Assembly: GCA_025558095.1 (NCBI GenBank)
Contig: JAIVFI010000019.1
Location: 558,001 to 622,000 of the forward strand
Origin: Hyaloraphidium curvatum
Lineage: Eukaryota; Monoblepharomycota; Hyaloraphidiomycetes; Hyaloraphidiales; Hyaloraphidiaceae
DNA length: 64,000 nt
Direction: 5' to 3'
This document shows, piece by piece, positions 20,793 to 53,153 of this stretch. The notes under the pieces were generated by a model. It worked only from the letters and a program-made list of their open reading frames with translations, was not told the DNA's origin and ran no database searches. The stretch's first letter is position 1. Each line of letters opens with the position of its first letter. A program made the translations under genes and the position numbers.

Positions 20793-21097
20793 CCATGACT
20801 GAGCTCCACAAGGCGTCGATGTCGATGAGTAATCGAGCCGTCGCCATCACAACTGCCTGGAGCGACGTGGATTGCCACATCCGCGGCCTCGATCACCGCA
20901 ACGCAACGCTACCTGCGGCCACCGAACCCTTCGGGGAATCCGGGCGATCGTCGTGCGGCCGGGCCGTGCGGCCGGAAGGGACCGACCGTTGCGACGTTCC
21001 AGAACCGATCGTAGGGACCGGTCCCTAGAGGACACAAGTACTTCAGGGAGCGTCCTCCCCACGCCCTCCATCACCAACGCTGCCGCAAACGACCACC
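20793..21097. other. Intergenic, promoter of surface-protein copy A
   Basis: 305 bases. From about 20969 to the ATG the sequence is duplicated upstream of copy B (from about 34127), so the promoter was copied with the gene. It contains the palindrome listed at 21012. Confidence 0.6.
21012..21027. promoter_or_regulatory. 16-bp perfect palindrome upstream of copy A
   Basis: TAGGGACCGGTCCCTA, 71 bases before the ATG of surface-protein copy A. The matching site in copy B (34171-34186) differs by one base and is no longer a perfect palindrome. A second GGGACCG half-like motif lies about 35 bases upstream in both copies. Could be a dimeric factor site; this is inference only. Confidence 0.3.
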
Positions 21098-23107
21098 ATG
21101 CGCGCCACCTCCTACCTCGCCGCCGCCGGCGCCGCCGTCCTGGCCCTCGTCGGCCGCTCCGACGCCCAGGGCGTCGCGTGGTCCGGGCGCTCTGAGCTCG
21201 CCGCCCTGACCGGCTGCACGTCCGGCCAGCCCGGCACGAACGCGCCTCAGGTGACTACCAGCTGCTCAGCTTGCCTTCTGGATCGGTCGCTAACTATGGC
21301 CGCCCCTGACAGGTCGACACGGCCCGCACCAACATGACCAGGGCGGACATCACGGTCGCCGCCTGGACCAAGCCCGTCTCCGGCCGCAAGATGACCATGT
21401 ACCTCGGCAAGGAGATGCACGGCACCGCCGTCTGCGTCGCCGACTCGGTCGGCAGCACCGGCACCTGCCGCTACGACTTCACGCTGCAGGGCACCTGGCG
21501 CACGCTCCGCGGCTGCGCCTGGTCCAACCCCGACACCACGAGCCGCCCCGGCTACGAGGTCCGCAACAACACGGTCTACCTGGAGTGGCAGGACGTCTTC
21601 CCCGGCGGCAACCGCCAGGCCTCGCGCTACGCCTACCCGGTCTCGATCGCCCTGCCGACGACCGTGAACGTGCAGACCGACATCAAGGTCCTCGAGGAGT
21701 CGGGCATCAAGAACTTCAACCTGACGGGGCTGTCGTACGACATCACCGACGGGCAGCGCTTCCTGATCGTCGACTTCACCATGTTCTCGAGGTGCGTTGC
21801 TCGCGGGGTGGCGCTGATGGGCCGCGATCTGATTGTCCCCTCCCTCCAGGTGGCCCAACAACCTCACTCTTGACGCCGACTCGGGCTACATCCAGCTGCC
21901 CGGCTACACCGGATCCGTCGAGATCGTCTCGTACACCCTGCCCACCTGCGTCAAGACCGACGGCTCGGCCAGCACGGCCTTCACCACCCAGGACTTCTGC
22001 TACCAGAACGGCCAGCTGAAGATCGCCATCGGCGACGTGTGCAACGTCGGCGGCACCTACGCCTTCAACTTCGACACGAACTGCTTCCCCGGTGCCGCCA
22101 ACACCAACACCTGCACGGGCAAGGTGCTCACGGCCAACGCCCTCATCGGCACGCCCAACGCCTCGGGTGCCCTCGAGCTCGACCTCTGCAACGCCCTCCT
22201 GAACACCGTGGCCGCGGTCACCGGCGTGATGGTTGCGGACAAGCCCCAGGGCTACTTCTTCGGCGACACCGTCCTGCTCACGGCCACCTTCACCTCGCCC
22301 GACCTGCCCATCTACGAGGCCCGCCTGACCAAGATGATCCTCGGCCGCAACAAGGTCGAGCGCACGCCCAACATCGGCGCCGCCACCACCGTGACCCGCA
22401 ACGTCAACACGACCCTCGTCGACTCGGCCGCCGGCCCCGCCGCCGTCGGTGCCCTCTCGACCCTGGCCGTCAACACCAACTTCACCTACCTCCCGACCGC
22501 CGACCCCAACGTCGTGGAGATGAAGGTCACGCCCAACATGCTGCCCAAGCAGGCCGGCGTCGACTTCAACGACAACTCGTTCCTGACCACCGACGACTTC
22601 GACTCGATCACCGTGAGTAGCGGACGGATGCGTGCTGCACGCGATCGGTCGCTCATCTTCCTCCCCTTGCAGGACTACACTTTCTACGCCACCTTCCGCA
22701 TCTACTTCGACCAGCAGTCCGCCGCCGGCCAGCGCCGCCGCCGTCTCCTCGCCCGTGACGTGCAGGTGCCCGCCCCGGCCCTGCGTCAGACCACGACGAG
22801 CAACCAGAACGCCAACGCCGCCCTGACGGTGCCCCCCAACCCCAACGCGGTGCAGACCCAGCCCACCACCGCCCCGGTCGCCCCCGTCGCCCAGCCGGCC
22901 GCCGCCACCTCGTCCAACGAGGCCCTGGTCATCGCCGCCATCGTCATCGGCACCCTCGCCCTCCTCGCCGCCTGCTGCACCCTCTTCGTCCTGCTGGCCA
23001 TGCGCCGCAAGGACAAGAAGCGCCAGGAGGAGGATGCCTTCATCCGCCAGAGGCTCGTGGACGGGCTCGAGTCGGCCAAGGTGCCCGCCTGGGGCGCTTC
23101 GGTGTAA
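21098..23107 (+). CDS. Type I cell-surface protein, duplicated family, copy A
   Basis: 609 aa from exons 21098-21250, 21313-21791, 21850-22612 and 22673-23107. Signal peptide (RATSYLAAAGAAVLALVG) with likely cleavage after SDA. The ectodomain is beta-rich, with about ten cysteines and many NxT/NxS sites. A basic RRRR tract near residue 485 lies before a Pro/Gln/Thr-rich stalk. Then comes one membrane span (VIAAIVIGTLALLAACCTLFVLLA) and a short charged cytosolic tail. The layout (Cys-paired beta ectodomain, multibasic site, stalk, single span) recalls ZP-module proteins, but I cannot show homology. Function unknown; surface adhesion, recognition or wall anchoring are possible. Codon use is strongly C-ending, suggesting high expression. 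Confidence 0.8.
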
Positions 23108-23491
23108 GGAGCTGACTGGAGGAGGGAGTGAACTGGCGCATGGGACAGAGTGTATTAGAAGCTTGCACAACAACGACCAGAGTGTTGCTATCTTTCCTTG
23201 CGCGGATCCGGGTCCTGACAAGTAGCCGGATCCGGGTCCTGACAAGTAGCTTCGCGGCAGCAAAGCGGCAAAGCAAATACGAATGTGCATCATTTCGCCA
23301 GCTTGGGCGTTCTCGCTTGGTGATGGATGATACTGGCCTCAAGGTAGGCGTGGAGTCCGGTGGGGTGCGTCCCCGAGCAGAAAGCCGAATCGGGGCTTGA
23401 ACGAATCGCCGCCCGAACCCCCGACGGAACGCGTCGCCGCCGGCCACCCTTCGGAAGAGCTTGACAGGGCGTGAGACAGCTCCGGACAACG
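23108..23491. other. Intergenic with short tandem repeat
   Basis: 384 bases between copy A of the surface gene and glutamate decarboxylase. The first ~80 bases are shared with the region after copy B. Contains a 24-bp tandem duplication. Confidence 0.6.
23203..23250. repeat. Perfect 24-bp tandem duplication
   Basis: Two identical 24-base units back to back (23203-23226 and 23227-23250), each beginning CGGATCCGGGTCCTGACA. Lies just past the end of the duplicated segment and is absent after copy B. Confidence 0.9.
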
Positions 23492-33809: not shown

Positions 33810-34256
33810 GCGGTCTTGTGCCAGTTGTGTATTTTGGAACCAATCCGATGGCATGGTTTTGGCTCGAAGCTTACCAATCGCTTATTCATTCGTCACTTTG
33901 GGACGTCTACGAATCGATAGGGACCCTCTCATTCGGGAGGTGGGCCGTCGATTAGTCAAGGCTTGTCGGGGCTGTGGAGCCGAGCACCGTGAGGGTCGGC
34001 AGCGGCCTCGAGTGCGGCTTGGGAAATCCACGACCTTATGGCGCTACCAGGCTATCTGCTGCATCCTACGGTGCCTATTGGCCAGCAAAACGATGATCGC
34101 TGTTGGTTCGTGCGGTTGGGGACCTACGGCCGGAAGGGACCGACCATTTGCGAAGTTCCAGAACCGATCGTAGGGACCGGTTCCTAGAGGACACAAGTAC
34201 TTCAGGGAGCGTCCTCCCCACGCCCTCCATCACCAACGCTGCCGCAACCGACCACC
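33810..34256. other. Intergenic, promoter of surface-protein copy B
   Basis: 447 bases; the last ~130 match the promoter of copy A. No gene seen before that. Confidence 0.55.
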
Positions 34257-36350
34257 ATGCGCGCCACCTCCTACCTCGCCGCCGCCGGCGCCGCCGTCCT
34301 GGCCCTCGTCGGCCGCTCCGACGCCCAGGGCGTCGCGTGGGCCGGGCGCTCTGAGCTCGCCGCCCTGACCGGCTGCACGTCCGGCCAGCCCGGCACCAAC
34401 GCCCCTCAGGTGAGCCTAACCCCGTCTCCAGGTGTGCTGAGCAGGCGCTGATACTGTTTCCGCCCCCCCAGGTCGACACGGCCCGCACCAACATGACCAG
34501 GGCGGACATCACGGTCGCCGCCTGGACCAAGCCCGTCTCCGGCCGCAAGATGACCATGTACCTCGGCAAGGAGATGCACGGCACCGCCGTCTGCGTCGCC
34601 GACTCGGTCGGCAGCACCGGCACCTGCCGCTACGACTTCACGCTGCAGGGCACCTGGCGCACGCTCCGCGGCTGCGCCTGGTCCAACCCCGACACCACGA
34701 GCCGCCCCGGCTACGAGGTCCGCAACAACACGGTCTACCTGGAGTGGCAGGACGTCTTCCCCGGCGGCAACCGCCAGGCCTCGCGCTATGCCTACCCGGT
34801 CTCGATCGCCCTGCCGACGACCGTGAACGTGCAGACCGACATCAAGGTCCTCGAGGAGTCGGGCATCAAGAACTTCAACCTGACGGGGCTGTCGTACGAC
34901 ATCACCGACGGGCAGCGCTTCCTGATCGTCGACTTCACCATGTTCTCGAGGTGCGCTGCTCGCGGGGTGGCGCTGATGGGCCGCGATCTGATTTTCCCCT
35001 CCCTCCAGGTGGCCCAACAACCTCACTCTTGACGCCGACTCGGGCTACATCCAGCTGCCCGGCTACACCGGATCCGTCGAGATCGTCTCGTACACCCTGC
35101 CCACCTGCGTCAAGACCGACGGCTCGGCCAGCACGGCCTTCACCACCCAGGACTTCTGCTACCAGAACGGCCAGCTGAAGATCGCCATCGGCGACGTGTG
35201 CAACGTCGGCGGCACCTACGCCTTCAACTTCGACACGAACTGCTTCCCCGGCGCCGCCAACACCAACACCTGCACGGGCAAGGTGCTCACGGCCAACGCC
35301 CTCATCGGCACGCCCAACGCCTCGGGTGCCCTCGAGCTCGACCTCTGCAACGCCCTCCTGAACACCGTGGCCGCGGTCACCGGCGTGATGGTTGCGGACA
35401 AGCCCCAGGGCTACTTCTTCGGCGACACCGTCCTGCTCACGGCCACCTTCACCTCGCCCGACCTGCCCATCTACGAGGCCCGCCTGACCAAGATGATCCT
35501 CGGCCGCAACAAGGTCGAGCGCACGCCCAACATCGGCGCCGCCACCACCGTGACCCGCAACGTCAACACGACCCTCGTCGACTCGGCCGCCGGCCCTGCC
35601 GCCGTCGGTGCCCTCTCGACCCTGGCCGTCAACACCAACTTCACATACCTCCCGACCGCCGACCCCAACGTCGTGGAGATGAAGGTCACGCCCAACATGC
35701 TGCCCAAGCAGGCCGGCGTCGACTTCAACGACAACTCGTTCCTGACCACCGACGACTTCGACTCGATCACCGTGAGTAGCGGACGGATGCGGGCTGCACG
35801 CGATCGCTCGCTCATCTTCCTCCCCTTGCAGGACTACACTTTCTACGCCACCTTCCGCATCTACTTCGACCAGCAGTCCGCCGCCGGCCAGCGCCGCCGC
35901 CGTCTCCTCGCCCGTGACGTGCAGGTGCCCGCCCCGGCCCTGCGTCAGACCACGACGAGCAACCAGAACGCCAACGCCGCCCTGACGGTGCCCCCCAACC
36001 CCAACGCGGTGCAGACCCAGCCCACCACCGCCCCGGTCGCCCCCGTCGCCCAGCCGGCCGCCGCCACCTCGTCCAACGAGGCCCTGGTCATCGCCGCCAT
36101 CGTCATCGGCACCCTCGCCCTCCTCGCCGCCTGCTGCACCCTCTTCGTCCTGCTGGCCATGCGCCGCAAGGACAAGAAGCGCCAGGAGGAGGATGCCTTC
36201 ATCCGCCAGAGGCTCGTGGACGGGCTCGAGTCGGCCAAGGTGCCCGCCTGGGGCGCGTCGGTGTAAGGAGCTCACTGGAGGAGGGAGCGAACTGGTGCAT
36301 GGGACAGCGTGTCTTAGAAGCTTGCACAATAACATCAGAGTGCAACTATC
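34127..36350 (+). repeat. Direct segmental duplication, copy B
   Basis: Partner of the segment at about 20969-23190, offset by 13,159 bases at the start codon. Homology fades about 85 bases after the stop codon and about 130 bases before the ATG. Confidence 0.9.
34257..36266 (+). CDS. Type I cell-surface protein, duplicated family, copy B
   Basis: 609 aa from exons 34257-34409, 34472-34950, 35009-35771 and 35832-36266. The protein is identical to copy A except for Ala29 instead of Ser29, by my reading. Signal peptide, Cys/NxT-rich ectodomain, RRRR tract, stalk, single span and cytosolic tail are all kept, and no reading-frame damage is present, so both copies should be functional. Exon and intron lengths match copy A exactly (introns 62, 58 and 60 nt), yet the 62-nt intron 1 has a different sequence: only splice signals are shared. 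See copy A for family discussion. Confidence 0.8.
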
Positions 36351-44903: not shown

Positions 44904-47204
44904 TTAGAGCCTGCTCCTCTTCGGCATCGGCGGCCTCGGGCCCTCCGGGAACGCGAACGGCTCCGGATCCGCAAACCTCCGCAGCACGTTCCTTGTGATC
45001 CTCGCTACCTCATTGTCGTACCCCCGGTAGTCCAGCGCCCCAGCCCACGCAATAGAACCCGTCGAAAACACCGCGCCGCCGCCCGGCGTCTCGAAAAACA
45101 CCATGTCGGCGCGGACGTCGGGGTCCCGCTCGCTGTGCGGGCGCGAGGCGAGGAACTCCTCCTTGACGCGGAGCATGGCCGGGCCGTGGTTTTCGGATGA
45201 GGCGAGGACGAGGGCGTGCGCGGGGGAGCCGAGGTACCTGTCGAAGCTGCGCACAATGTAAGGAGAGATCGTGCGTCGAAGAGCGAGCGGGACCCACCGG
45301 TCGATCTCTTCGCCCGCGGCGCCGCCGCCGATCCGCCCAAAGTCGCCGATGATTTCCTCCTTCACCCCCTGCATCGCAAACGCCGCCCTAGGATCGTCCG
45401 CCCCGGGCATGCGCCTATAGTAGCTCGACTTGTCGAACCCCTGCGCCGCGAACCCGATCCCGCAAAGCCGGTTGGGCGGCCGTCCGTTGCGCCGCCACAG
45501 CCCGCCCAGCCTGCCGTCGCTCTCGTGGAAGTACTCCCCCGGCTCCTCGGGCCACGCCCGGGTGCCGTCTTCTGCGCGGCGGAGCTCCACCGCCGCGGGC
45601 CAGGAGGGTGAATAGCCGGTGCGCCAGTAGAACCCGTTGCCGCCCATGTACATAAGCCGGCCACCCCCCGCCAGGAAGCCCTCGAGGGCGTCCAGCATCT
45701 CGTCCGAGTAGTACTCGGGGTGCGTGCCCGTGACCACCACCCTGGCCCCCGCGAGCGCCGCGGCCCCGCGCAGGTGCAGCGCGTGATCGGTCAGCAGGTC
45801 GTGCCCCGGCGCCTCGCGGGCGAGCCACCGCAGGATGGCTACGTCCGAGGGGAAGGCCCAGTTGCGGGAGTCGGGGGAGATGTTGGCCACGGGGCGGAGC
45901 CACGAGCTGTGCCGGGTGCCGGTACCGTCCGCGTGGAACTCGTACAGGGAGCGGCCCCAGGCACGGTTGTCGTAGAGCTTCTGGACCACGGGGCTGGGCG
46001 GGCCGCCCTTGTTGAGCAGGGTCTTGTCCAGGCCGACGTGGACGGTCTCGTTCGCGTAGGCGAGGTACGTGAATGTCGGGGCGAGGAAAACGACGGGCGT
46101 GCAGGGGCGGTCGGCGGGCTCGACCAGCACGACCGCGTAGGCGGTCTGCCCGCCGCGGGAAAAGGTCGCCGCGTAGGCGCCCGAAGGCAGGTCGGCCGGG
46201 ACGGTCCACTCGGCCGCGGGCGCCCATTCCATGTCGTACTGATCGTCCGACGAGAACTGCGCCGCGGCGTACAGCTCCGGCTTGTCCGACCAGCGCTGCG
46301 TCGAAGAGTCGTAGTGGATCCCCTTGACGGCGCGCGCGGGCCAGTTGAAGAACTCCCCATCCCACGCGTGCGGGCCGAGGTCCTTGAAAGCACGAGTGCC
46401 GATGCCGACGGAAAAGTCCCACCAACCAGCGCCTCCGGCGTCCGCGGGGGGCTGCGGCTGCAGGACGGCCTGCACCACGTTCTCGCATGTCACGGCGCCG
46501 GGAAACAGCCGCGGGGCCTCGATCTTGCCGTCAAAGTGGTTTGAGAAGGTGGGGGAGGGACCAAAGGTCCTCGAGCGCGCGGCGATGGCCAGCCTGTCGG
46601 CGGCGAGCGGGGCGAGCCTGACGGAGGCGGTCGCCCGGTCCTCGACCTCCTTCTCTGCGGGCCCCTCCGCGCCGTGGATGGCCAGCAGATGGAGTGTGCC
46701 CGACGACGCGTCGTAGGTGGCAGCCAGCAGCGTCCACCGCAGCTCGGGCAGCGGGCGCCTCAGCGCGAGGAGGGCCTTGCCGGAGCCGTCGACGACGCAC
46801 GGCCCGCCCTCGTCGTCCAGCTCGATGTAAAGCCCGGCGCCCGTGCGGCTGTCTGCCACGCCCAGCACGGTCTGAGCCCGCCGCGGCCGCGTGGGAAACA
46901 CGGCGCAGCCGAGTGCCCGCGAGTCGAGGGGGAACGGGAGCGCGAGCCGGGCGACGCCGTAGTTCCCAATGTGCTGGGGCTGCGCCGCCACGCTGATCGT
47001 GCCCGCGAACGGCGCATCGATCGGCAACGCATCGATCGCGTCGGTGATGCCGCCGACGGGCGCGCCACGGCCGGTGCCTATGCGGACCAGGCCCGCGTCG
47101 ACGGGGCCGGACGGCGCGGCGTGCACATGGAACGTGACGCGGTCGCCGGGTCTGGCGAAAAGGTGGCTCGGGTACGCCGCAATGGCGGGCTTCGTGGCGG
47201 ACAT
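44904..47204 (-). CDS. N,N-dimethylformamidase large-subunit-like hydrolase
   Basis: 766 aa, intronless, from ATG 47204; an upstream extension of the frame lacks features. The N-terminal ~110 residues form a beta-rich region, followed by a lectin-like sandwich (GLYIELDDEGGPCVVDGSGKALL, FDGKIEAPRLFPGAV). The C-terminal part has FLAPTFTYLAYANE, HALHLRGAAALAGARVVVTGTHPEYYSDEMLDALEGFLAGGGRLMYMGGNGFYW and a late NEVARITRNVLRRF. These match the catalytic subunit (DmfA2) of bacterial dimethylformamidase, which splits DMF into dimethylamine and formate using iron. The small subunit is not in the window, and fungal relatives may act on other amides. Single-exon structure among intron-rich genes suggests bacterial origin. 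Confidence 0.8.
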   Translation of the reverse strand: MSATKPAIAAYPSHLFARPGDRVTFHVHAAPSGPVDAGLVRIGTGRGAPVGGITDAIDALPIDAPFAGTISVAAQPQHIGNYGVARLALPFPLDSRALGCAVFPTRPRRAQTVLGVADSRTGAGLYIELDDEGGPCVVDGSGKALLALRRPLPELRWTLLAATYDASSGTLHLLAIHGAEGPAEKEVEDRATASVRLAPLAADRLAIAARSRTFGPSPTFSNHFDGKIEAPRLFPGAVTCENVVQAVLQPQPPADAGGAGWWDFSVGIGTRAFKDLGPHAWDGEFFNWPARAVKGIHYDSSTQRWSDKPELYAAAQFSSDDQYDMEWAPAAEWTVPADLPSGAYAATFSRGGQTAYAVVLVEPADRPCTPVVFLAPTFTYLAYANETVHVGLDKTLLNKGGPPSPVVQKLYDNRAWGRSLYEFHADGTGTRHSSWLRPVANISPDSRNWAFPSDVAILRWLAREAPGHDLLTDHALHLRGAAALAGARVVVTGTHPEYYSDEMLDALEGFLAGGGRLMYMGGNGFYWRTGYSPSWPAAVELRRAEDGTRAWPEEPGEYFHESDGRLGGLWRRNGRPPNRLCGIGFAAQGFDKSSYYRRMPGADDPRAAFAMQGVKEEIIGDFGRIGGGAAGEEIDRWVPLALRRTISPYIVRSFDRYLGSPAHALVLASSENHGPAMLRVKEEFLASRPHSERDPDVRADMVFFETPGGGAVFSTGSIAWAGALDYRGYDNEVARITRNVLRRFADPEPFAFPEGPRPPMPKRSRL

Positions 47205-47732
47205 CGCGGATGGGATGAGGTGAGCGCGTGTGAGGTCTGTCTCCCGCTCCGGCCGCGGGAACCGTTCCGTTCCGTGTAGACCAGGACCAGGTTGCCCTGC
47301 TAAACTCCTGAGCCCCACATTGCGTTGCCAGGGTGAAGTAGAGTCATGGAGCCAAATAGCATCAGATACGGCCATATCTACCAGAAAGCACCAGTTCTCG
47401 TCAGACCACTGAAGTTAAGCTGGTATGAGCCACGTCAGTACTGTGGTGGGAGACCACACGGGAATACGTGGTGCTGTATCTTTTCTCTTTTTCGCGGACG
47501 GATCTTCCACGAGGCGCTGGAAAGGATTGTTTTTGATCATTGCTGGCCCCGATGTGCTCACCGGCGCCATCGGGGTGAGGTGGAAGAGCTCGAAGCATTG
47601 CACGACACGCCGCAGAGAAAACGATCTTCCGTGGTCAACGCAATACCCGGCGCCAACGCAATACCCGGCGCCAACGCATTACCGGCGCCAAAACATTACC
47701 GGCGCCACGGTGGGCACTCTTTCAGCACCAGC
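47205..47732. other. Intergenic with degenerate tandem repeat
   Basis: 528 bases between the end of the wall-enzyme gene and the start of the dimethylformamidase-like gene. Lower GC; carries the repeat at 47636 but no gene. Confidence 0.5.
47636..47705. repeat. Four-unit 17-18 bp tandem repeat
   Basis: Two identical 18-base units (CAACGCAATACCCGGCGC) are followed by two 17-base variants. Lies 28 bases downstream of the stop of the GH128 fusion gene, probably in its 3' untranslated region. Confidence 0.85.
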
Positions 47733-50700
47733 TTACATGGCTCCAACCTGCTGCAAGACCACCTGCACCTTGAGCATGTTGATGCGAACCCCGCCGTGGA
47801 GGCCATCCTCCGTGTAGCTCGCGCTCCCTGCCGTGCTGAGCCCGTACGAGTCCACGAACGCCGACCCCGGAGCGTTGGCCCCCGCGCAGGCCTGCCATCC
47901 CGAGTTGAACGCCTCCACGGGAGCGTTGTTCCCGTCCACCCAGGTCTTCTGCTCGATCCGGTGCATGCCCAGCACGACCAGCCGCGAGTACGGGATGCCG
48001 TACTTGGCGAACAGCGCGGCGATCGGCTTGAGCACGTTGTCGCAGTTGTAGGCCGCGTTGTAGGCCCCCGTGCCGAGCTGGCTGTAGGGCGGCGTGCCGC
48101 CGACGACCACGACGACGCTGCTGGAGGCCTGCTGGATGACGGTCTCGAGGTCGGCCATGATGTTCATCGACGCCGTGTCGGTTGTCCAGTCCGTGAACAT
48201 GCCAAAGTAGTCCACCAAGCTCCGTTTCGCGCAGATGTCACTCGTATACCAATACTTCCAGACTGTAGGCGAGTACCAATGCTCCGTCTTGTTGCGCCCC
48301 ATGGAACTCTGCGCGTAATTCTTGCATTGCTGGTTGTTTTCCATCAGATACGGGCTCTGGCAACGGCACGTGGCGTTGATCGTGCTGGGCGTCAGGGGGG
48401 ACATGTAGCCGAGCTCCGCGTCTTCCCGCAGCAGGGCATGCAGCTCGTCGTGCACGTGTTTGGTCAGCGAGTCGCCGATGAATACGGTCCGCGCGGCACG
48501 GGTCAGGGCGCCGCAGGCTTGGGAGGCACCCCACCACCGGAGATCGCACGAAGGCCTAAAAGGTCCGTCGTAGCTCGTCCGCTGGCCCGGCATCGCATCA
48601 ACAACGGGGTTGGCGCACGCGCGGGCGTCCAGGGGTTCGCCGAGGCCGCCGATCGACTGGTTGAAAGAGCAACGCGCGAGGCTGGCGTTCCACGCCGTGG
48701 TCAGCGACGCGCCGCTGGGCAAGGGGCTCGACGTCGGGGCGGCGAAGGTGACGGTCGTCGCCATGACCGGCGTCTGCGTCGTCGCGGTCGCGGTGGTCAC
48801 CGGCGTGGCCGGCGAGATGCCGTAGGTCTTGTAGACGTTGCCCACGGGGCTCAGCTGGAAATGGCTGCTGTACAGCTGGTGGTAGATGTAGGCGCCGTCG
48901 GCGGAAGCGGCCTGGTGCGTCCACCATGCGTAGCGCTCGATATCCGCGCGACCATCGAGGTATGCGAGGAGCTGCTGGGCATATGCGGTCATGGGGGCGT
49001 AGCCTTGAGCAAGAGGGTACGGATAGGCGGGCCACTCCCAAGTCGGCATGCATCTACGACCACGCACGTCAGAGGAAAGTACCGCGGCGAGTCGGCGCGG
49101 CTTGCTCACCCGAACTCGGTAACCCAGACCGGCTGCCCGTACTTGACCGTCCTCTTGTCTAGCTCGGCCACGAACTTGGTGAAATCGCAATTATAGATGT
49201 GCACGGGGTTGAAGTCCACCCTGCACCCGCGCTGGCCGTACGGCTTGCCGGCGCACTGCTTGCAGACCGACGCCCCGAGCGTCGACGCCGCCTGGCACGT
49301 GGTCCCAGTCCCGCCGAAGGACGCCTCGATGCAGTAATACTTGTCGCATTCCGTGTACCAGCTGTCGAGCCAGGGCGGCGACGAGCCGATCGCCGGCCCG
49401 CCCAGGCGGAGGCCGTACTTTGCAGCGGCCCGCTCCAGGAGGTACCACTGCTGCGCGCCGACGGCGGGGCTGATGTTGGCCTGGTCCGCGCGGTCGGGCT
49501 CGTTCCAGCCCAGCAGGACGCGGGTCGTCTGCCTCGTACTGAGCGTGGCGAGGTTGGCGTCGAGGCTGGCGATGTTGGCCGGGCTCCACTGCATTGGGAC
49601 GTACTCCCAGGGCGGGTTCGCGCTGGCGCCGAACAGGACGGGGTTGGGCGTCTGCCAGTTGTACGGCATCACGTCCCACGAGTACCTGAACGCACTGATT
49701 CAGCGTGTACGGATGTGTGGCGCTAGCGGCGAAACGCACCACCAGGATGCCTGGCCCGTGAAGTTGCGCAATACCGCATTCTGGTCCGCCAGCCAGATGC
49801 CGTGGCCGCGCTTGGAGAAGGAGGTGCCCGGAGGCGGCGGCGGCGGAGGGGGCGGGGCAGGTGCTGCCGTCGTCGCCGTCCTCGTCGTCGAGCTGGCGTG
49901 GGGAGCGGTCGCGGTGCGAGAAGCAGTCTGGCTCCTGCTGGTGCTGGATTTCGTGCGGGTGCTTGACGATCGGGTCTGGGTCCGGCTCGTGGTGGCCTTG
50001 ATTATGGCGGCCGTCGTCGACGTCGGGCGCGGGGCGGTCGTGGACGGCGGCAGCTTCGTCGGGGTCGGAGGCAGCAGCGCCGTTGTCGGAGCGGCCAAAG
50101 TCGGTGCCGGCTGCGTCGTGCTCTGCGCGGCCAACGTGGGGGGCGGCGGTGCCACGGTGGTGTTGCCTCCCAGGCCAAAGGTCTTGTAAGTCTCGCCAAC
50201 GGGGCTCAAGTCATACTGGGCCGTGCCGTAGAGCTGGTGGTAGACATAGCTGCCGTCCGAGGCCGAGGCGCGGTGAGTGAACCAGGCGTAGCGCTCGACG
50301 TCGGGCCGGGAATCGAGGTAGGTGATCAGCTGCTTGATGTAGGCGACCATGGGGTCGTAGCTCTGGGCGACGGGGTAGGGGAAGACGGGGATTTCCGAAC
50401 CGGGCAAGCAGCTGTCGACAAATGCGTCAGCCCGCGGCGCCCGAATCCACGGACGATCGGGTCACCCACCCGAACTCGGTGACCCAGACGGGAAGACCGT
50501 ACTTGGTCGTCCTGGCGTCGAGATCTGAGGCGAACTTGGTGAAGTTGCACTGGAAGACGTGCGCGGCGACGAAGTCCACCCGACACCCGCGGCGCCCGAA
50601 CGGCAGGCCCTTGCACTTCTTGCAGGAGTCCGCGCCGAGTGTGCCGGCGGCCTGGCACGTCTTTCCGGTGCCGCCGAACTGCGATTCGATGCAGTACCAG

Positions 50701-51301
50701 GCGTCACATTGGGTGCTCCAGACGTCCATCCTGGCCTGCAGTGAGTTCGCGGCACTCGGAGGGACCGAACCACGCCGAACCCACCATGGCGGGTAGTTTC
50801 CCATCGCGGGGGAGCCAAGGCGAAGGCCGTACTTGGCCGCGGCCCTCTCCAATAGGTACCAGTTGCGTGCCGCAGGGGTCGGCATGATGTTGGCCCGCTC
50901 CGCCCGATCCGGCTCGTCGTAGCCCAGCAGGACTTGCACGGGCTGTTGGGCCACGAGGGCGGCCAGGATGGCGTCGAGGTCGGTAATGTTGTTGAGTGCC
51001 CGCTGTAAGTGGCGCGGGGTAAGTCGCCGTCCGCTGTGAGGGCGCGAGGACGGACCTGCATTGCAACGAACTCGAACGGCGGCGCGGCGGCGGCCCCTGC
51101 GGCCAGCGCGGCGGGGTCTGCGGGGGCGGCTGAGTAGGAATGCCACCATCCCGCGGCGCCGGCGAAGGTGCGGAGCGGCGCAGCCTGGTCGGCGAGGCGG
51201 ACGGCGTGGCCGCGCTTCCCCACGGCGGACTGCGCGGCCGCGGCGGGCAGCAGCACGAGCAGCGCCGCCAAGAGGGGGGGGATCAATCGGCGGAACCGCA
51301 T
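47733..51301 (-). CDS. Secreted GH128-GH128-PC-esterase fusion enzyme
   Basis: 1,115 aa from five exons: 51301-51056, 51002-50470, 50411-49740, 49685-49110, 49053-47733; introns 53-58 nt, all in phase. Signal peptide (LIPPLLAALLVLLPAAAA), then GH128 (Asl1-like beta-1,3-glucanase) domain 1 (about 27-340), a Ser/Thr/Pro linker (341-455), GH128 domain 2 (456-755), a Thr-rich linker and a PC-esterase/TBL-like SGNH domain (about 800-1115). Domain 2 has LLGWNEPD and VWVTEFG, the expected acid/base and nucleophile. Domain 1 has LLGYDEPD and VWVTEFG. The SGNH part has RWWGASQACGAL, VFIGDSLT (Ser near 871) and DGLHGG near the end. It probably cuts glucan and removes or transfers O-acyl groups in a wall. 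The domain 1-domain 2 join at 49740/49685 is strict. Confidence 0.8.
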
Positions 51302-51798: not shown

Positions 51799-52691
51799 CT
51801 ACCCCTCGTCCTTGCACACCCACGACGCCGGGACCATCTGCACCTCCCTCACCGCCCTCCACTGCCCCCCGCCCCTCGCTGGATCCCCCAGCACCGGCAA
51901 CCCCACCGGCCCGCTCGGCGTCTTCAGCACCTCCCCCACCCACCCCCTCAGCCCCTCGTCGTCGAACCCACCCGCCTCGCACACCCGCGCCACGAACGCC
52001 GCGTCGGTCGGCGCGCCGTGCACCGAGACCACCTTGTCCAGCGTCCTCTGGTCCGCGAACGGCCGGATGGCGGCAAGCAGGAGGTCGAACACGCCCGGCG
52101 GGTTGACGAGGACCAGCCTGCCCAGGCGTTCGGGGAAGTGCGCCTCGAACGTGGAGGCGAAGGTGATCCCCAGGCGGGCCTGCATCGCGTGCCGCAGGCC
52201 GAACCCGGCGAAATCGACGAGCCAGGTCCATTGCCCCGAGGTGGTGAAGGGGTGGGAGAAGCACAGCTCGAGGCAGCGCACGACGTGGTCCACCGTTTCC
52301 GGGACCGAGGATCTGGTCGCCCGCGGGGGGGAGCCGTACACCACCACGCGGCCGGACGAGTCCCAGCCGACGGGGAGGAAGCAGTGCGCCTTTTCTTCCG
52401 CGTCGCAGTCGGGGCATCTGAGGGGCATGCCGGGGGGGAGCACCGTCCGGCGCCATTCGAGGGTGCGGCGGAGCATCGCCAGCGCGGCCTCGGGGTCGCC
52501 CGGCGCGCGGAGAGGTACCGCCGCAGGGTGGCGTCGCTGAGGAAAGCGTTGGCGCCGGGGAGGGCGACGAGCGGGAGGACCCGCTCGTCGCGCCAGGCGA
52601 CGAGGGGGACGAGGCCCGATTCGGGGGGCGGGTCCGAGGGGTTCGGCGGGGAATCGGGGCCATCGGCCGGGGGGGACGCGTTCGGAGGCAT
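51799..52691 (-). CDS. CRAL-TRIO (Sec14-like) protein with one-base frame break
   Basis: About 297 aa if the frame is continuous. From ATG 52691 the frame reads FLSDATLRRYLSARR, the family's N-terminal CRAL-TRIO-N helix, then loses register near 52499-52504. One base further the next frame continues GDPEAALAMLRRTLEWRRT and the lipid-binding domain: VVVYGSPPRAT, WTWLVDFAGFGLRHA, FERLGRLVLVNPPGVF-type strand, LLLAAIRPFADQRTLDKVVSV. The break sits in a run of three C on the plus strand where four would restore frame, and no usable intron fits. It is either a real pseudogene mutation or a sequencing/assembly slip. Family members carry phosphatidylinositol or other lipids between membranes. Confidence 0.65.
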
Positions 52692-53153
52692 GGAAGACGC
52701 GTCGCTATGTAGGCAGATGCCCGTTCGATGTCTGCAGGGCCCTTTTCTGCTGTCGGCAGTAGGCGGGCGGAGTTCGAAAACCGATCGTTCGCCACGCCCA
52801 TGAGTTCAAGCAGTCAGGCATTCACGCTAATCCGCTAGTTGGACGTCCGATGATCCGCCGTCATGGAAATGGATGGATTCGGATGAGTGAGATAGAATGG
52901 GACTTGCCTTTGCGACGTGCGATCAATCGAGTCGAGATGTCCATTCTGGGAAAGCACGCCGGAATCGTGCCACGCCGACCACGTGAACTGGATGTGGTAA
53001 TCCTAACGTTCTTCGCAGCATTCCACCGCCCTGCTTGCTCTCTGAATCGTGCAGCAGGCGCGTCCAGGGGGGGCTTCCGCATTTGGCGCTTTGTGCCGGC
53101 GCGGGGCCGACCGCGGCGTCAACAACAGCCCGCAGGGACCTCCGCTGCCCGCA
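52692..53153. other. Intergenic between divergent genes
   Basis: 462 bases between the CRAL-TRIO and DUF726 genes, holding both promoters. The frame of the DUF726 gene extends into it without an ATG. Confidence 0.45.

Follow-up and report, generated by a model that had tools for sequence, protein, structure and literature searches.

The gene described here lies on the minus strand of the window, the 64-kb stretch of DNA that was analysed, and is predicted to encode a secreted protein with two GH128 domains, two linkers and a C-terminal SGNH-like domain (Table 1). Upstream of it lies a CRAL-TRIO gene (51802-52704), and the downstream neighbour on the same strand (44907-47414, minus) encodes a C-terminal domain like that of the N,N-dimethylformamidase beta subunit (PF20254, 277 bits). 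DUF726 and GT17 were found on other genes of the window, within which there was no sign of a functional cluster around the gene. An 18-bp minisatellite of about four copies (47636-47707) directly follows the stop codon. The window also contains a direct duplication of 2.24 kb (20951-23184 and 34108-36342, 97.5% identical), which carries an ORF weakly similar to DUF6535 (E 8e-4, below the cut-off) and is possibly a recent duplication of a gene or an element. This weak similarity was insufficient to assign the source to a fungal phylum, and searches of the genome for DUF6535 and KDZ found nothing; chitin synthases of class-2 type in the genome are consistent with a fungus.

Table 1. Positions of the gene, its exons and introns, and the parts of the predicted protein
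Feature	Position	Strand	Residues	Remarks
Whole gene	51301-47733	minus	1097 aa	6 exons, 5 introns; ATG at 51301, TAA at 47735-47733
Exon 1	51056..51301	minus		start codon, signal peptide, initial part of GH128-1
Intron 1	51003..51055	minus		53 nt, GT..AG
Exon 2	50785..51002	minus
Intron 2	50731..50784	minus		54 nt, GT..AG
Exon 3	50470..50730	minus
Intron 3	50412..50469	minus		58 nt, GT..AG, phase 2 after EFG
Exon 4	49740..50411	minus		end of GH128-1, linker 1, start of GH128-2; single open frame
Intron 4	49686..49739	minus		54 nt, GT..AG
Exon 5	49110..49685	minus
Intron 5	49054..49109	minus		56 nt, GT..AG, phase 2 after EFG; position matches intron 3 of copy 1
Exon 6	47733..49053	minus		end of GH128-2, linker 2, whole C-terminal domain, stop
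Signal peptide	51230..51301	minus	aa 1-24	MRFRRLIPPLLAALLVLLPAAAAQ; recognised by eye: the n-region is basic, the core hydrophobic and the last residues small
GH128-1	50171..51229	minus	aa 25-322	E112 codon 50915-50913, E240 codon 50477-50475
Cys-rich insertion region, copy 1	50547-50708		aa 163-216	one per GH128 copy
Linker 1	49826..50170	minus	115 aa	30 Thr, 25 Pro, 14 Ser; poly-Pro end; no Met
GH128-2	48816..49825	minus	aa 438-737	predicted acid/base E528 (49501-49499), predicted nucleophile E656 (49117-49115)
Cys-rich insertion region, copy 2	49187-49348		aa 579-632	one per GH128 copy
Linker 2	48720..48815	minus	32 aa	Thr-rich
C-terminal SGNH-like domain	47736..48719	minus	aa 770-1097	predicted triad S853 (48470-48468), D1074 (47807-47805), H1077 (47798-47796)

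Gene structure and reading frame

The initial annotation had joined the coding pieces at 50470/50411, 49740/49685 and 49110/49053, and these three junctions gave an intact protein with GT..AG introns of 58, 54 and 56 nt. Its splicing scheme was nevertheless incomplete, in that two further introns (introns 1 and 2) were needed. Both were fixed by aligning the two GH128 copies. The acceptor of intron 2 is GGCCAG at 50731; once this intron is removed, the odd read-through sequence (PPWWVRRGSVPP...) is replaced by PPWMDVWSTQC, which pairs with PPWLDSWYTEC of copy 2. Retention of intron 4 brings in an in-frame stop within that intron (frame 49700-50461). The GC3 was 0.83-1.0 in all parts of the gene, both linkers included, and this fits the expectation for coding DNA.

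In exon 4, the reading frame stays open from the final third of GH128-1 through the whole 115-residue linker and ~30 residues into GH128-2, and there is no in-frame Met between aa 263 and 472. GH128-2 therefore could not begin a gene of its own, and a separate second gene starting between the two GH128 domains, which the initial annotation had named as the finding that would speak against its model, is ruled out on sequence grounds. Judged on the sequence, 51301-47733 is one gene encoding one protein, and the single secreted multi-domain protein proposed at first was borne out by one open spliced frame. It is very improbable that the gene model is an artefact joining two or three separate genes: the introns were located by homology and splice signals only, which leaves a little room for it, but the frame runs through the Met-free linker 1 into GH128-2, and linker 2 and the C-terminal domain share exon 6 with the end of GH128-2. 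Both linkers are probably O-glycosylated.

Two GH128 copies with different active sites

The initial annotation had suggested a search with PF11790, and this profile matched the protein in two stretches with an E value of 1.5e-79 (267 bits, compared to a curated Pfam cut-off of 21). In a search of PDB sequences, GH128 structures matched GH128-2 at 1.7e-19 and GH128-1 at 7e-17. An alignment of the two copies spans 301 columns, with 58% identity. Each copy contains eight Cys, all of them common to both, and a Cys-rich insertion of ~35 residues. Together with the phase-2 intron that both carry after EFG, the identity and the eight-Cys pattern suggest that the pair most likely arose by duplication inside the gene. 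No other GH128 gene was seen in the 31.9 Mb assembly, and a GTDB scan with GH128-2 by an exact-peptide method returned no match. Between the copies, dN was 0.34 and dS was 0.88 (dN/dS ~0.39), from which it appears that both copies remain under constraint.

The active sites were compared in an alignment of both copies with 12 relatives, namely CBM6E and 11 bacterial GH128s collected by tblastn on plasmids. In CBM6E, the catalytic residues are E168 and E272, and Y247 assists the nucleophile; W117 and W141 provide stacking for the sugars at -2 to -4, Q174 binds the -2 sugar, and the -1 sugar is held by N167, H245 and E272 (PMC10956234). Both catalytic Glu are present in each copy (E112/E240 in copy 1 and E528/E656 in copy 2). 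In CBM6E numbering, none of the 12 relatives departs from W117, N167 or Q174, and a single one departs from W141. GH128-2 retains the full substrate set, W117, W141, N167, Q174 and H245. In GH128-1, the first four are replaced by Y, R, D and R, respectively, so that of the substrate residues listed only H245 was kept. GH128-1 also has F at the place of Y247; however, two ordinary Streptomyces GH128s have F there as well, and hence not all the changes in GH128-1 need be disabling.

Among 34 well-conserved columns kept by GH128-2, seven were lost in GH128-1, and five of these seven have a substrate or catalytic role (hypergeometric p ~0.004); GH128-1 has lost ten aromatic residues and gained one (p 0.012), although both p values serve as guides because the positions were chosen after the fact. 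Of the two glucanase domains first proposed, then, both belong to the family, but the first is altered at W117, W141, N167 and Q174. On this evidence GH128-1 is a GH128 homologue whose status as a GH128 enzyme is putative, and it is probably crippled or re-purposed. It probably folds and holds a glycan without efficient cutting of plain beta-1,3-glucan, and it is possible that its specificity was altered. For GH128-2, the family match and the complete active site lead us to infer a retaining beta-1,3-glucanase. The two copies thus offer a natural test pair for the residues needed to cut glucan as against those needed to hold it.

The C-terminal domain

In the initial annotation, the C-terminal domain was called a TBL/PC-esterase-like SGNH domain. 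The SGNH part of this assignment is plausible from motifs, topology and structural matches, but the PC-esterase/TBL part found no profile match. The motifs GDS (S853) and DGLH, a form of DxxH (D1074 and H1077), occur in this order, and the domain has Cys at 786, 804, 827, 838 and 1047. It is single-copy in the genome. The search with PF13839 that had been proposed for it, like that with the rest of Pfam, left it unmatched up to E 10, whether the whole domain or four sub-fragments were used. A match to DUF6860 (E ~0.02, below the cut-off) was taken as chance. There was likewise no match in NCBIfam, in PDB sequences, in tblastn on plasmids or in the viral and GTDB scans.

PF13839 does detect PC-esterases elsewhere in this genome (4e-23 and 1e-15), and its silence on the C-terminal domain therefore indicates that this is no close member of the family. 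One of the PC-esterases of this genome matches plant ESKIMO1 (6cci) at 7e-23. When the domain was compared with three of them by hhalign, it scored 21 and shuffles reached at most 19, which places the score near the shuffle level. A viral scan for PC-esterases, aimed at a deeper profile, found none. The PC-esterase (PF13839) genes of the genome lie at C35:218605-219423, C38:70764-71504 and C44:4254-4373; they are TBL-like with DCSHFCLPG-type ends, unlike the C-terminal domain.

The domain was modelled by AlphaFold2 without relatives, and the models were poor. The 332-residue model had a mean pLDDT of 39.6, and a 258-residue core model had a pLDDT of 46.4 and a pTM of 0.47. In the core model, strands and helices alternate, GDS directly follows strand 1 and DGLH directly precedes the last helix. 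No GxND was seen; FTDW stands after the third strand, the placement of the strands being of low confidence. When this model was compared by VIA-align, SGNH/GDSL enzymes, mostly carbohydrate acetyl esterases, filled almost all of the top 24 rows, among which were two design scaffolds. The best row was the CE3 enzyme 5b5l (Z 10.6, rmsd 3.7 over 175 residues, for a model of pLDDT 46), and beyond the first 24 rows the entries were mixed and unrelated, with Z of 9 and below. By Foldseek, the best matches of the core model were PatB and putative acylhydrolases at a non-significant E of 0.02. VIA-align of the 332-residue model mixed heparanase, aldolase and GDSL acetylesterase rows, with SGNH not leading, and the TIM-barrel matches of this model in Foldseek were meaningless, as one would expect from a pLDDT of 40. 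The structure 6cci (XOAT1) was not among the listed VIA-align rows for either model, which is uninformative.

The core model thus suggests that the domain likely has an SGNH fold. We consider it most likely a divergent representative of this fold that carries Ser, Asp and His as a set and is a putative O-acyl esterase. Another possibility, which we regard as unlikely, is an acyl transferase, which would attach acyl groups to wall glycans or shift them from one to another, as plant XOAT1 and bacterial PatB do with this fold. XOAT1, a structurally solved member of the PC-esterase family, is a xylan 2-O-acetyltransferase (PMC9487903), and PatB structures appear among the structural matches; against this, its predicted secretion would take the protein away from Golgi acyl donors, and the best structural matches, from a weak model, are CE3 and acetylxylan esterases. 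Slightly less likely still is a structural or binding domain in which GDS and DxxH were kept by chance or descent. Such a domain would agree with the poor models and with the lack of a significant sequence match in any library searched, but not with the S, D and H at the right topological places in the core model, nor with structural matches of that model headed by SGNH enzymes.

Proposed function and relation to known systems

We hold, with middling confidence, that the protein most likely remodels a wall or food glucan by means of one working beta-1,3-glucanase, a glucan-holding domain and a putative O-acyl esterase. In this scheme GH128-2 would cut beta-1,3-glucan. GH128-1, which has lost the sugar-stacking Trp, the -1 Asn and the -2 Gln, would hold the glucan or act on a changed substrate. 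The C-terminal domain would strip ester groups from the glycan near the place where GH128-2 cuts, and the long linkers would keep the modules together, letting them act jointly on one area of wall or food glycan. Removal of acyl groups generally makes glycans easier to degrade, as discussed by Anantharaman and Aravind (PMC2824669), and this fits a fusion of GH128 with an esterase-like domain.

On the view of the initial annotation, both GH128 domains would cut beta-1,3-glucan after its de-protection by a C-terminal PC-esterase. De-protection followed by cutting is a reasonable idea in itself, and GH128-1 does have both catalytic Glu and the -1 His, the dN/dS between the copies is low enough to agree with it, and the C-terminal motifs are SGNH-like. 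However, GH128-1 is without the Asn that adjoins the acid/base and without three substrate contacts kept by the relatives, and the PC-esterase profile misses the C-terminal domain yet matches other loci of the genome. We therefore find this full version rather unlikely. A bolder version is that new Arg residues in the groove of GH128-1 (W141>R, Q174>R and, at the first strand, W448>R) let it hold a charged or acyl-decorated glucan and feed it to the SGNH esterase before GH128-2 cuts, a bind-deprotect-cut enzyme that would point to an unrecognised ester-modified beta-1,3-glucan; this we consider speculative and improbable.

Returning to the remodelling scheme with one working glucanase, if its modules do cooperate, this would hint that O-acylated beta-1,3-glucan is a real substrate in or around the fungal wall. 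Acetylated glucans have been reported from bacteria (PMC7710045). The literature searched held no evidence of acylated beta-1,3-glucan in fungal walls, and the substrate may therefore equally be some other acetylated polysaccharide met during feeding.

In comparison with the PC-esterase family PF13839, which comprises the Cas1p N-terminus, PMR5/TBL, Fam55 and FAM113, the C-terminal domain is alike in some traits. PC-esterases are without the Gly after strand 2 and the GxND after strand 3, have W or H replacing N, and carry a Cys pair bracing the domain ends (PMC2824669). The C-terminal domain has GDS and DxxH, predicted secretion and, as far as the weak model can place them, no clear GxND, a Trp near the place of the Asn and Cys near both ends, but it has neither the profile match nor the DCxHxCLPG end of TBL proteins. 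The best structural matches of its low-confidence core model are CE3/GDSL acetyl esterases (5b5l, 5b5s and 2vpt) and rhamnogalacturonan acetylesterase (1deo); to these it is only 11-15% identical in the structural alignment, with no match at the sequence level.

Compared with the known GH128 enzymes PvGH128_II (6uav), ScGH128_II (6uax) and CBM6E (8j3x), GH128-2 shares the profile and both Glu, as well as Asn and His at -1 and, for contact with the substrate, two Trp and the Gln. The difference is that here one chain bears two GH128 domains, the first altered at its active site, and that the Cys-rich insertion of both is missing in the 11 bacterial GH128s. The literature searched, the coverage of which was partial, yielded neither a fusion of GH128 with an esterase nor a GH128 tandem with an altered copy and an SGNH-like domain. 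GH128 proteins are not strictly single-domain, as the initial annotation had mainly known them, since a GH128-CBM6 protein exists (PMC10956234). This protein, CBM6E of Saccharophagus degradans, likewise combines a GH128 catalytic domain with an ancillary domain that helps with the glucan; there the ancillary part is a CBM6, whereas here it consists of an altered GH128 and an SGNH-like domain. The module types are thus all known, and it is their combination that is unusual, rather than a new kind of system.
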